Origin: Chloracidobacterium sp. CP2_5A
Lineage (GTDB): Bacteria; Acidobacteriota; Blastocatellia; Chloracidobacteriales; Chloracidobacteriaceae
Reading direction: 5' to 3'
Assembly (NCBI GenBank): GCA_002254845.1
Contig: NKPT01000004.1
Coordinates: forward strand, 1-64,000
Length of the DNA stretch: 64,000 nucleotides
This document shows, piece after piece, positions 4,677 to 34,705 of the stretch (the stretch's first letter is position 1; every line of letters starts with the position of its first letter). A model generated the notes under the pieces. It did not search any database and was not told where the DNA came from. It saw only the letters and a program-made list of their open reading frames with translations. Position numbers and translations under genes: made by a program.

Positions 4677-6236
4677 CTAGCCCATGCCGGCCCGGCGCTC
4701 GCGCGAGCCGGGAATATGCATCTGGTCGCGGTATTTCGCCACCGTTCGCCGCGAAAGCTTTTGCCCTTCGCGCGCCAGGATGCGGGCGATTTCATCGTCG
4801 GTGAGCGGCTCGCGGGGGTCTTCCTCAGCGATGAGCCTCTTGATTCTGAGCTTAATAACGTCGGTGGAGACCGCTTCGCCGTCGTCGTTGATCAGCCCTT
4901 CCGTGAAAAAGCGACGCAGCTCGATGATGCCCAGCGGCGTTTGCACATACTTGCCGTTGACCACGCGGCTGACTGTCGAGAGGTGAAGACCGACGCGCTC
5001 GGCAATGTCCTTGAGCATCATAGGCTTGATGCGCGCCGGGCCATGATCGAGAAAATCGCGCTGCCGTTCCACAATCGCCTCGCAAATCCGGTAAATCGTC
5101 CGGCGGCGGTAGTCAATGTTGCGCATGAGGTCAATTGCGGCGCGCAGTCGGTCGCGGACGTAGTCCCGCTCCTCGCGCGAGGCGGCGGGGTTTTCCAGAA
5201 TGCGGCGATATTTGGCATTGATGCGCAGTTGCGGCAGCCCGTCGTCGTTGAACCGAATCACGTACGCATCGCCGACTTTCTCAATAAAGATCTCCGGCTG
5301 AATGAGCTGCGCGCCGTTGAGGAGGCCTTCGCCAATCCGGGCGAAGCGGCGACCGGGGAAAGGGTCAAGCTGGCGAATGAGCGCCACCTCCTCGGCAATC
5401 GCTTCGCAGCTTACGCCGAGCAACTTCGCCAAGTCAGGCCAGCGAAAGGGCGCGAGGCGATCCAGGTAGTCCCGAACCAGCCGCGCGGCCAAGCGGTTGC
5501 CATGGCCCTGCTGCTCAAGCTGCGTGATGAAGCATTCGCGCGTGTCATACGAGGCGCAGCCCGCCGGGTCGAGTCGCTGGACCAGATGCCGGGCGGCTTC
5601 CACCGTCTCCAGGGTCCAGCCGCCAATGGCGGCAATCTCCTCGCAGGAGTCGGCAAGGAAGCCCCGCTCGTCGAGGCTGGCCGCAATGGCTTCCGCCGCC
5701 GCCCGCATCTCTTCGGATAGATGGAGCAGGATAATTTGCGATTGCAGGTGTTCGTACAGGGTCAGGTCGCGCTTGAGCCGATTTTCCAGCGCGTACTCCT
5801 CGCGTTCCTCATACTCGCCCTGCGCGCGGTAGCCCGGATCAAGGTAGTTTTCAAACATCGCGCCGAAATCGATCTCGGCAAACGGGTCAACGGCTTCGGA
5901 CGGCTCGTCGGCGGCATCCTCGGCAGGCGAATCGGCCGCCGCCTCAAGCTCCGCGGCGGCGGGCGATGCATCCGCCGCCTCGTCATTGACCAGCCCGAAG
6001 TCGCCCTCGCCAGCCGCTTCCGGGAGCAGATCGTCCGTGACGGTCAGCCCCTCGGCTGGCTCGCGCGGATCGGTTTCTTCGAGCAGCGGATTTTCGGCCA
6101 TTTCCTGCGTGGTCAACTCGGCAAGATCGGTCAGCGTCATGCTGAGCATCTCGATGCGCTGGCGCATCTGGGGCGTCAGCGCTAGCCCGAGGCGCTGCTC
6201 GACGCGGGGCGCAAGTTGTGGACGCAGGTTCATCAT
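4677..6236 (-). CDS. rpoN: RNA polymerase sigma-54 factor
   Basis: A 519-residue sigma-54. Region I is the Gln/Leu-rich N-terminus (RVEQRLGLALTPQMRQRIEM). An acidic, Ala/Glu/Asp-rich region II spans about residues 50-135. The core-binding domain follows, then a helix-turn-helix (IAERVGLHLSTVSRVVNGKY) that contacts the -12 element. The C-terminal RpoN box appears as RRTVAKYRD, close to the canonical RRTVAKYRE. It directs RNA polymerase to -24/-12 promoters and needs AAA+ activators, none of which lie in this window. It starts 17 bases after the lptB stop, the classic lptB-rpoN order. A second ATG follows immediately (MM). A candidate sigma-54 site is described at 31.7 kb. Confidence 0.97.
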   Translation of the reverse strand: MMNLRPQLAPRVEQRLGLALTPQMRQRIEMLSMTLTDLAELTTQEMAENPLLEETDPREPAEGLTVTDDLLPEAAGEGDFGLVNDEAADASPAAAELEAAADSPAEDAADEPSEAVDPFAEIDFGAMFENYLDPGYRAQGEYEEREEYALENRLKRDLTLYEHLQSQIILLHLSEEMRAAAEAIAASLDERGFLADSCEEIAAIGGWTLETVEAARHLVQRLDPAGCASYDTRECFITQLEQQGHGNRLAARLVRDYLDRLAPFRWPDLAKLLGVSCEAIAEEVALIRQLDPFPGRRFARIGEGLLNGAQLIQPEIFIEKVGDAYVIRFNDDGLPQLRINAKYRRILENPAASREERDYVRDRLRAAIDLMRNIDYRRRTIYRICEAIVERQRDFLDHGPARIKPMMLKDIAERVGLHLSTVSRVVNGKYVQTPLGIIELRRFFTEGLINDDGEAVSTDVIKLRIKRLIAEEDPREPLTDDEIARILAREGQKLSRRTVAKYRDQMHIPGSRERRAGMG

Positions 6237-29038: not shown

Positions 29039-30924
29039 ACCGGCCGGCGCAGGTCGCGCTTGATCTTGCGGTCGTCGGGCTTTTGTTTTCCGGCCTGCGC
29101 TTTAGCGGCAAAGCCTTGGGAGCGATCCTGCGTCTGGACGCCGAGCGCGCCACGGCGGACGACATCGCCCTGGGCGGCGTTGTCGCGGCGTGGCTGGCGT
29201 TCGGCGCGCAAACCTTTGGCGGCTACGGTCGCCCTCTGGCTTACCTGTTGCTTGGCGCGGGGTTGCTGGGGCTATTTGACCGCGCCTGGCGGCGGCGCGT
29301 CCGCCAAAGCGGACAAACCCTTCGAGAACGCGGGAATTGGGCGACGCGCGCGGCGCAGGGCGTAATCCTGGCCAGCCTTGGCAGCGCCTGGCTGGCGGCC
29401 TTGGCTCCGCCGGTCGCTAAGGATGCGCTGGTCTATCACTTGACCGTCCAGAAGAGCTACCTGGCCGCCGGGCGCTTTGTGGAACTCCCCCACAACATCT
29501 TTGCCTACTTTCCGCAGCTCGTTGAGGGGCTTTACGCCTGCGGCATGAGCGTCGGCGGCGACCGGACGGCGGCGCTCATTCACAACGGCTTCGGCTGGCT
29601 GTTGTGCGTCGTCGCCTACCGACTGGCGGACGACAGCGGCCTTTCCGCGACGAGCTGTTGGCTGACGGCGGCGGTCGTCGCCGCGACGCCGATGGTTTGG
29701 CTTGAAGCCGGATGGCCCTACGTGGATTTGGCGCTGGCGTTTTACCTGGCGCAGGCGCTTCGGTGGCTCTGGCGATGGCAAGCCACGGGACGCGCTTCGG
29801 CGCTCGCCACGGCCGGCGTCTTCCTTGGCGGCGCGGCAAGCGTCAAGTACCTCGCTTTGCCGCTGGCGCTAGCGCTGACGCCGGTCATCCTAGGGCTGTT
29901 GGCGACAAGACAGGCGACGCCTTCCCTGTGGCGCGTCGCGTCAACGCTGGCGCTGTTTTTCCTGCCGATGCTGGCGGCTGCCGCGCCGTGGTACGTCCGC
30001 AACCTGTGGCTGACGCGCAACCCGGTTTTTCCGATGCTCTACACGCTTTTTCCCACGCAGAGCGTCGGCTGGGACGCCAACCGCGCGCGCCTGCATCTGT
30101 TGTTTTTGCAGGGCTACGGGAGCGAAACGAAGGACTGGCTGGATTACGCGATGCTGCCGTGGCGCGTCTGCTGGCTGGCCCGCGCCGATGACATTCGGCG
30201 GTACGACGGCGAAATTGGCGCGGCGTACTTCATCTTTGTCCCGGCGCTTCTGCTGTGGCGTTGGATGACCATCCGGCTGCGGAGTCTAGCGGCGCTTGTT
30301 GTCGCTTTTTTCTGGCTCTGGGCGTTTTCGTCGCAGCAAGCGCGGTTTCTCCTGCCGGTTCTGGCCCCGGCCGCCGTCGTCGGCGTTTGGCTCGCCGTGG
30401 ACTGGCTCGGCCGCGCGCGGCGACTGCGCGTCGTCGGGATATTGAGCGTTGGGCTGTTGCTGGTCGCCAACGCGCTGCGCGCGGGCGAATTGGCGCTGGA
30501 AGGGCAAGCCATCGCCGCCGGAGCGGGCAACATCCCGGCGGAAGACTACTTGCGCGCCAAGCTGCCGGAGTATGGGCTGTTTCGCTTTTTGTCCGAGCGG
30601 ACAGAACCGCAGGCGCGCGTCTGGCTGGTCAACGTCGGCGCGCGCGCCTACTACCTCGACCGGCCCTTCATCACCGATTACGCCTTTGAGGATTACACCT
30701 TGGGACGGTTGGCTCGGGCGTCGCGCGCGGCGGAGGAGATGGCGCAGGCAGTGGCGGCGCTTGAGGCGGATTGGCTGCTGATCGCGCTCGACACTATCCT
30801 TGACCCGCGGACAACGCCCTTTGAAAACGAAGCCGAACGAGCGCGCTTTGTGGCGTATCTCCAGCAGTACGCGACGCTCGTTCGGCAGGACGGGCGACTA
30901 GCCCTGTTTCGCTTGCGGCGCTAG
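29035..30924 (+). CDS. Polytopic glycosyltransferase-like membrane protein (PMT/ArnT superfamily, GT-C fold)
   Basis: A 629-residue membrane protein with ten or more hydrophobic segments. The first periplasmic loop reads KDALVYHLTVQKSYLAAGRF, the acidic-loop position of GT-C enzymes that use polyprenyl-phosphate sugars. LPHNIFAYFPQLVEGLY is typical of bacterial dolichyl-phosphate-mannose-mannosyltransferase-like proteins. The acceptor is unknown. It overlaps tatD by four bases (ATGA), so translation is probably coupled. Its TAG stop shares the palindromic CTAG with the stop of the converging ECF sigma gene. Confidence 0.75.
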   Translation: MNRPAQVALDLAVVGLLFSGLRFSGKALGAILRLDAERATADDIALGGVVAAWLAFGAQTFGGYGRPLAYLLLGAGLLGLFDRAWRRRVRQSGQTLRERGNWATRAAQGVILASLGSAWLAALAPPVAKDALVYHLTVQKSYLAAGRFVELPHNIFAYFPQLVEGLYACGMSVGGDRTAALIHNGFGWLLCVVAYRLADDSGLSATSCWLTAAVVAATPMVWLEAGWPYVDLALAFYLAQALRWLWRWQATGRASALATAGVFLGGAASVKYLALPLALALTPVILGLLATRQATPSLWRVASTLALFFLPMLAAAAPWYVRNLWLTRNPVFPMLYTLFPTQSVGWDANRARLHLLFLQGYGSETKDWLDYAMLPWRVCWLARADDIRRYDGEIGAAYFIFVPALLLWRWMTIRLRSLAALVVAFFWLWAFSSQQARFLLPVLAPAAVVGVWLAVDWLGRARRLRVVGILSVGLLLVANALRAGELALEGQAIAAGAGNIPAEDYLRAKLPEYGLFRFLSERTEPQARVWLVNVGARAYYLDRPFITDYAFEDYTLGRLARASRAAEEMAQAVAALEADWLLIALDTILDPRTTPFENEAERARFVAYLQQYATLVRQDGRLALFRLRR

Positions 30925-31649
30925 GCGGCGCGCGCTCCGGCGAGGAGCTCCTGCATCCGCGCGCGCGCCTTGTGGAGTTGCGACTTCGACGTGCCGGCGC
31001 TGATGCCGAGCAAGCCGCCGATTTCTTCGTGCTCGTAACCTTTCAGATCATGCAGAATGAGCACCGTCCGGTAGCCGCGCGGCAGTTTTTTGACCGCCGA
31101 CAGGAGCGCCAGGCGATCCACCAACGGCGCCTGCGCCTGCCGAATCATGACCGGCGTCACATCCTCCGGCAGGTCGCCCTCCTCCGTCACGCTCTCAACG
31201 CGATTCGACTTCTTACGGAAGTGCATGAGCACCTGATTGACGGCGATTCGGTGCAGCCAGGTCGTGAAAGCGGCCTCCCCGCGGAAACTTCCGAGCTTGC
31301 GCAAAACCTGCATAAACACTTCATGCGTCAGGTCTTCAGCGTCATTGGGACTGCCGGTCATGCGCAGGCACACCGCATAGACCCGCCGGTAGTGCTGGCG
31401 ATACAGCTCCTCGAATGTTTCCGCGGTTGCGCCTGCGGCCGGCGGCTCAGCCGCGGTCGACGCTGGCAGGGCGTCAGGCGCGGCATCTTCTGAATCCAAG
31501 CCTTCATCCAGTCCGGGAACGCCCGGCTCTAAGCCGAACTCGCCGGGCAGATGCGAAACCTCATCAAAGCCGGAGGGAGCGAGCGTTATTGCGGAGGGTT
31601 GCGTAAACGCGACTGAAAGTAAACCGTCTTCAGTTGATAAGCGGCACAT
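30921..31649 (-). CDS. ECF-type RNA polymerase sigma factor
   Basis: A 242-residue group 4 sigma factor with an unusual acidic, Ala/Pro-rich extension of about 75 residues before region 2. Region 2: FEELYRQHYRRVYAVCLRMT, DAEDLTHEVFMQVLRKL and FTTWLHRIAVNQ; region 4: LPRGYRTVLILHDLKGYEHEEI then LGISAGTSKSQLHKARARM. ATG 31649 has a strong AGGAGG at 31658-31663, eight bases away, fixing the start. No anti-sigma gene is adjacent. A near-consensus sigma-54 site lies just upstream. It converges with the glycosyltransferase gene with a four-base overlap. Confidence 0.9.
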   Translation of the reverse strand: MCRLSTEDGLLSVAFTQPSAITLAPSGFDEVSHLPGEFGLEPGVPGLDEGLDSEDAAPDALPASTAAEPPAAGATAETFEELYRQHYRRVYAVCLRMTGSPNDAEDLTHEVFMQVLRKLGSFRGEAAFTTWLHRIAVNQVLMHFRKKSNRVESVTEEGDLPEDVTPVMIRQAQAPLVDRLALLSAVKKLPRGYRTVLILHDLKGYEHEEIGGLLGISAGTSKSQLHKARARMQELLAGARAA

Positions 31650-31697
31650 CTTGGAAGCCTCCTATAGCGGAATCGGCAATCACTGCTTGCATATAAA

Positions 31698-31715
31698 GAC
31701 AACCTGCGTGCCAAA
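31698..31715 (-). promoter_or_regulatory. Candidate sigma-54 (-24/-12) promoter of the ECF sigma gene
   Basis: On the minus strand: TTTGGCACG (31707-31715), CAGG, TTGTC (31698-31702), against consensus TGGCACG-N4-TTGC. The invariant GG is present and the -12 GC is GT, with exact N10 spacing. Transcription would start near 31687, 38 bases before the ATG. An overlapping GGAAC (31716-31720) with GTC at 31698-31700 could instead be an ECF-type self-promoter, although the 15-base spacer is short. Confidence 0.5.
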
Positions 31716-31768
31716 GTTCCCGGAAGACGCGCCCAAGAATGCCAAAGTGTTCTTTTTGGGAGGCTTAG

Positions 31769-31804: not shown

Positions 31805-31840
31805 GCGCGCGGAGCGCACGATTTCGTGCAAGGGCGCGGG

Positions 31841-34705
<2,865 letters not shown>

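Follow-up and report, generated by a model that had tools for sequence, protein, structure and literature searches.

The DNA analysed here, called the window throughout, is a stretch of 64,000 nucleotides from Chloracidobacterium sp. CP2_5A. In this window, an ECF sigma factor gene lies behind a gene with a Peptidase_M14 domain, and the gap of 191 bases between them holds a sequence compatible with a sigma-54 promoter of the -24/-12 type, shortly upstream of the ATG at 31649. The rpoN gene that had been claimed for the same window was found as well. The features are the following:

4677-6236, minus strand: rpoN (sigma-54), 519 aa, above the NCBIfam TIGR02395 cut-off
30921-31649, minus strand: ECF sigma factor gene, 242 aa (Pfam Sigma70_r2 and r4_2; TIGR02937 above cut-off)
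31658-31663, minus strand: ribosome binding site AGGAGG, read from the sequence and largely conserved in the congeners
31687, minus strand: predicted transcription start, placed 12 bases past the last -12 base
31699-31702, minus strand: -12 element TTGT; TTG invariant, last base T in 5/7 and C in 2/7 congeners
31707-31715, minus strand: -24 element TTTGGCACG, read from the sequence and invariant in 7/7 congeners
31716-31720, minus strand: GGAAC, possible ECF -35 word, lost in L004 and L006; 3/7 columns around it invariant
31817-31828, minus strand: dyad CACGAAATCGTG, candidate enhancer (upstream activator) site, kept in 7/7 congeners
31841-34705, minus strand: upstream gene with Peptidase_M14 domain (Pfam PF00246), same direction as the ECF gene

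The gene downstream of the ECF gene is convergent, and the anti-sigma word H-x3-C-x2-C is absent from the 800 bases downstream of the ECF gene. ECF operons with a zinc-finger anti-sigma were recognised by an anti-sigma gene directly downstream, and the locus falls outside this group. No sigma-70-like promoter was found by a promoter scan of the gap, and an Rfam search of the window returned a tRNA only.

Read on the minus strand from 31715 to 31699, the element is TTTGGCACG CAGG TTGT, with a C next at 31698. Compared with the sigma-54 promoter words TGGCAC and TTGC, the -24 word and the spacing are exact and TTGT is one base off; the original prediction, which had described such a word deviating only in the last -12 base and an AGGAGG ribosome site for the ECF gene, was accurate on both points. 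The start at 31687 rests on established sigma-54 promoter geometry. The string match alone proves nothing, since TGGCACN5TTGC with at most one mismatch was found 4 times in the 64-kb window whereas 5.83 matches are expected by chance. The longer word TTTGGCACGN4TTGY matches exactly at a single place in the window. TGGCACGN4TTGY was counted 8 times in the own genome, where its reversed control gave 2, and 72 times against 30 over the seven congeners pooled.

The pattern CTTTGGCACG-N4-TTG[T/C] is retained in all seven Chloracidobacterium genomes and the sequence of its spacer is not. In the seven-species alignment of the gap, the invariant columns are 10/10 in CTTTGGCACG, 0/4 in the spacer and 3/3 in TTG; outside the elements little of the gap is preserved, with 26/151 columns unchanged. 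A mask of 10 columns, 4 free positions and 3 columns was fully invariant (13/13) at a single one of 174 offsets, that of the -24/-12 element, and the next-best offsets, with 11/13, are its neighbours. This invariance over seven species lifts the site above chance. Two congeners, L004 and L006, possess a perfect -12 TTGC, and rpoN was found in 7/7 congeners.

An overlapping GGAAC...GTC had also been proposed, by which the ECF factor would read its own gene. Autoregulated promoters are common for ECF operons, and both words occur together in this window, L002 and L007. However, GGAAC is kept in 5/7 congeners, being lost in L004 and L006, and GTC in 3/7, being lost in the same two and in two more, whereas TTTGGCACG and TTG are present in 7/7; ECF autoregulation at this place is therefore not conserved. 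In the alignment, the invariant bases track the sigma-54 words and not the ECF word. Furthermore, distant relatives retain the -24 word and the dyad, and we consider it very unlikely that the ECF factor reads its own gene from the conserved block.

A search for upstream activator sites revealed a conserved dyad at enhancer distance, enriched together with -24/-12 words, which is taken as a candidate site. It stands 103 bases before TGGCACG in the window, and in 7/7 congeners the dyad CACSAAATCGTG ends 103-123 bases upstream of this word. Over the seven congener genomes, the dyad word occurs 19 times and the reversed word 0 times. A second copy is present in G001, G003, G004 and G005, 163-168 bases before another sigma-54 site, and the genes behind it code for small Gly-rich, retropepsin-like and prepilin-like proteins (the latter two named by eye). 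The composite search described below gave no second match, i.e. no Gly-rich operon target, in G000, G002 and G006. Autoregulation of the activator genes through the dyad was also considered and set aside: the three one-mismatch words before such genes all lie within open frames.

The position of the dyad just past the M14 stop codon, and the GC-rich inverted repeats seen by eye after it in several congeners, are compatible with an RNA hairpin or a part of the M14 terminator, the promoter being a sigma-54 one with its activator bound elsewhere. We find this improbable: as RNA, the region folds no better than ordinary sequence (z -0.82), a terminator scan detected none in the region, and in other genomes unrelated genes have the same dyad before their sigma-54 sites.

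A composite pattern consisting of the dyad CACSANNTSGTG, a gap and NGGCAYN5TTGY was then run against 118 genomes from the class Blastocatellia. With a gap of 80-140 bases, 29 matches were obtained against 2 for the reversed pattern, and with a gap of 140-200 bases 23 against 1, which amounts to 52 against 3. ECF orthologs stand behind 14 of the 52, namely those of the seven congeners, of G008 and of six f4 genomes. Behind 6 lies the pseudopilin operon's Gly-rich protein or, in G007 and G009, what is likely a relative of it; 5 precede DUF6600 proteins, of which four have a FecR domain, and 3 precede proteins with weak Gly-zipper matches, below Pfam's cut-off. The remaining 24 carry no assignment, and some resemble chance matches inside genes. 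No match was found in the six f8 genomes. The DUF6600 proteins observed behind a dyad and a sigma-54 site are L219, L220, L221, L281 and L269, from families f3, f6 and f5.

The regions upstream of 78 ECF relatives (up to 600 bases each) were examined with a second rule, YGGCAYR-N4-TYGH together with a dyad that lies 90-200 bases upstream and deviates at no more than 2 positions. The best 73 of about 107 ECF matches were read, roughly by score, so that weaker ECF paralogs are under-sampled; the neighbourhoods L148 and L150 yielded no or a wrong ECF gene and L053 yielded none. By this rule, which had been shaped after seeing an earlier shuffle-tested scan of the ECF relatives, the composite is present in 29/78 relatives, for 0.03 expected from shuffles and 0 in reversed regions; five of the 29 (L273-L277) came from the composite search itself, and without them the count is 24/73. 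These numbers bear on the possibility that the -24/-12 word is a coincidence and that the ECF gene is read from the upstream M14 gene or from an unseen promoter. One-mismatch string matches are indeed no commoner than expected in the window, but the invariance over seven species, the linked dyad and the 29 relatives make such a coincidence extremely improbable.

Among the 29 composite ECF genes, the -24 word is nearly perfect and the -12 word differs by lineage (TTGT 12, TTGA 8, TCGC 5, TTGC 4); the rarity of TTGC among them, like the TTGT of the window, speaks against the sigma-54 reading. Of the f3 and f4 promoters (L014-L019, L231-L246), those of f3 have TCGC and those of f4 either TTGA or TTGT. 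Our guess is that an off-consensus -12 word would make the promoter weak and tightly dependent on its activator.

The zinc-finger anti-sigma word, sought as H-x3-C-x2-C within 800 bases downstream, a distance at which a partner encoded elsewhere would escape, was found in 39/78 relatives, and the composite in 0/39 of these. Conversely, the word lies downstream of 0/28 checkable composite ECF genes, the 29th being cut by a contig end. Ten relatives have neither (L009, L013, L012, L020, L230, L259, L252, L248, L232 and L260). In L012, L020 and L248 the -24/-12 element is present and the dyad absent within 2 mismatches; L009, in the same family, has degenerate words only, and L013, in f2, weak ones. 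In the earlier scan, L025, L224, L230 and L232 had reached a shuffle p of at most 0.01 and L020 and L012 had shown few dyad matches; the first four were left out of the positives because their -24 word is broken.

The composite ECF genes occupy two separate parts of the tree, f1+f2+f3 and f4. A single clade for them, over 35 rows (L009 and 34 rows judged positive from the earlier upstream scan or the composite search), had an AU p of 0.023, which became 0.104 when L252 was added. The independent-pairs test of composite against anti-sigma gave only 2 pairs on supported branches, and no statistical claim is therefore made for their link. Given the two places and an AU result that depends on L252, the link between composite and absent anti-sigma should count as one evolutionary event or two, whatever the number of genomes that carry it. 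Among the paralogs with an anti-sigma, G010:C3 (L172 8-3502, L164) contains in a row a PAS sensor kinase, a PilR-like activator, the ECF paralog, its zinc-finger anti-sigma and a further gene; in G011:C70 (L165), the end of a PilR-like gene and one more gene come before the ECF gene and its anti-sigma.

The AAA+ activators that a sigma-54 promoter calls for were also present, with nine full or strong matches and five weak ones in the own genome. Two of these, with an extended N-terminal part and a length of about 1000 aa (L158 12794-15814 and L160 7047-10106), are each near a sigma-54-like site (C25:85990 and C158:48256). A response-regulator AAA+ activator (L159 6417-7631) ends before any DNA-binding helix-turn-helix, and its counterparts in two congeners, L179 and L177, are 88-92% conserved.

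Our best guess for the protein that would bind the dyad is the NtrX-like regulator. Its best NCBIfam match is NtrX, at 436.6 bits and thus below the cut-off of 600, and the dyad, GCA-N8-TGC, is one base shorter than the putative NtrX site GCA-N9-TGC given in excerpts of PMC7240162. The PilR-like regulator had been favoured at first because of a PilS-PilR-ECF cluster and the pseudopilin operon, and was set back as the preferred binder by the pilA gene beside the PilR-like gene in G053, which lacks the dyad. That the PilR-like or the L163-type regulator binds the dyad rather than the NtrX-like one has nonetheless, in our estimate, not quite an even chance. All three have orthologs of 54-70% identity in G010, G038, G053, G056 and G075; in G010 a PilR-like gene is the neighbour of an ECF paralog that has a zinc-finger anti-sigma, the end of such a gene is found there in G011, and the L163-type regulator is present in all three sampled genomes of f5, f7 and f8. 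Several observations argue weakly in the other direction: the pilA gene of G053 has a sigma-54 site and no such dyad, PilR-like proteins were not found among the sampled f5, f7 and f8 activators (17 of the 21 in G018 covered), and the L163-type regulator is present in f8, yet the composite was found in 0/6 f8 genomes. The NtrX-like regulator is present in the sampled f5 and f7 genomes and absent from the sampled f8 genome, and its published putative site resembles the dyad, which is likewise weak evidence. The pilA-like genes L324 2473-2714 (G053) and L065 (G002) carry the sigma-54 sites TGGCACGGGCATTGT and TGGCACGTCTTTTGC, respectively, with no CAC...GTG dyad, and a TTGTC...GACAA word lies upstream of the one in G053.

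The elements, their conservation, the common dyad and the gene order are read directly from the DNA; from them we infer the binding of RpoN and of an activator, the identity of this activator, its signal and the targets of the ECF factor. In the proposed mechanism, RpoN holoenzyme at the -24/-12 element would transcribe the ECF gene. The activator, an AAA+ enhancer-binding protein and probably a response regulator, would bind the dyad some 135 bases before the start, loop to the RNA polymerase-sigma-54 complex and open the promoter. As no anti-sigma is encoded next to the gene, the ECF factor is presumed to be controlled mainly through its amount, which this promoter would set. Small Gly-rich proteins, the pseudopilin operon and DUF6600/FecR proteins likewise stand behind this dyad and a promoter of this type, and since most of these targets look exported, the cascade probably serves the cell envelope. 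On sequence comparison, a cascade from sigma-54 to the ECF factor is well supported, and it is very probable that an RpoN promoter opened by a dyad-bound AAA+ activator drives the ECF gene. The original prediction thus holds in part: the sigma-54 promoter and the cascade are favoured by the conservation in 7/7 genomes, the dyad, rpoN, the activators and the other families, and the autoregulation is not.

At slightly better than even odds, we propose that one Blastocatellia ECF family is split by its mode of control. Many of its paralogs have a co-encoded zinc-finger anti-sigma, whereas another set, with none beside it, would be under the same kind of sigma-54/enhancer promoter as Gly-zipper-like and DUF6600/FecR envelope proteins. 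In this view, transcription that depends on an enhancer would have replaced anti-sigma sequestration once or twice, and the ECF factor would form the second tier of an undescribed sigma-54 envelope regulon. Paralogs with and without an adjoining anti-sigma gene, as a class-wide case in Acidobacteriota, would offer a natural comparison of two ways to silence a sigma factor, and the promoter list together with the dyad provides a means to find the activator.

To our knowledge, all cases of sigma-54 control of ECF genes come from Proteobacteria, and no published account for Chloracidobacterium, Blastocatellia or Acidobacteria was found in open-licence full text. Passages of PMC8871633, PMC12655853 and PMC3597554 yielded nothing decisive. 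According to passages of PMC5263251 and PMC8103513, the ECF gene hrpL of Pseudomonas syringae and Pantoea is activated by sigma-54 with HrpRS or HrpS; the present locus resembles it by its ECF gene, its sigma-54 promoter, its upstream activator site (a candidate here) and transcription as the main control (presumed here). HrpL acts in the type III secretion of plant pathogens; the present locus differs in its gene, dyad, further targets and phylum. In E. coli, rpoE P2 is an RpoN-dependent promoter of an ECF gene, acting with QseF (PMC8103513, in part), and an RpoN-type promoter is likewise predicted here before an ECF gene; whereas rpoE is read from several promoters and is paired with the anti-sigma RseA, a single conserved promoter and no neighbouring anti-sigma were found here. 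The same passages state that for ECF factors devoid of an anti-sigma or a regulatory extension, transcription may be the sole control. The locus is also reminiscent of NtrYX of Rhodobacter sphaeroides, as presented in the excerpts of PMC7240162, by an NtrC-family regulator (a candidate here), envelope targets and a GCA...TGC site, although the spacer is 9 there and 8 here and NtrX-like binding is a guess. Sigma-54-driven ECF genes are thus already known, with HrpL and rpoE P2 as precedents, and in these soil and hot-spring bacteria the wiring from sigma-54 to an ECF factor appears to recur across a class, in the copies that have no neighbouring inhibitor.
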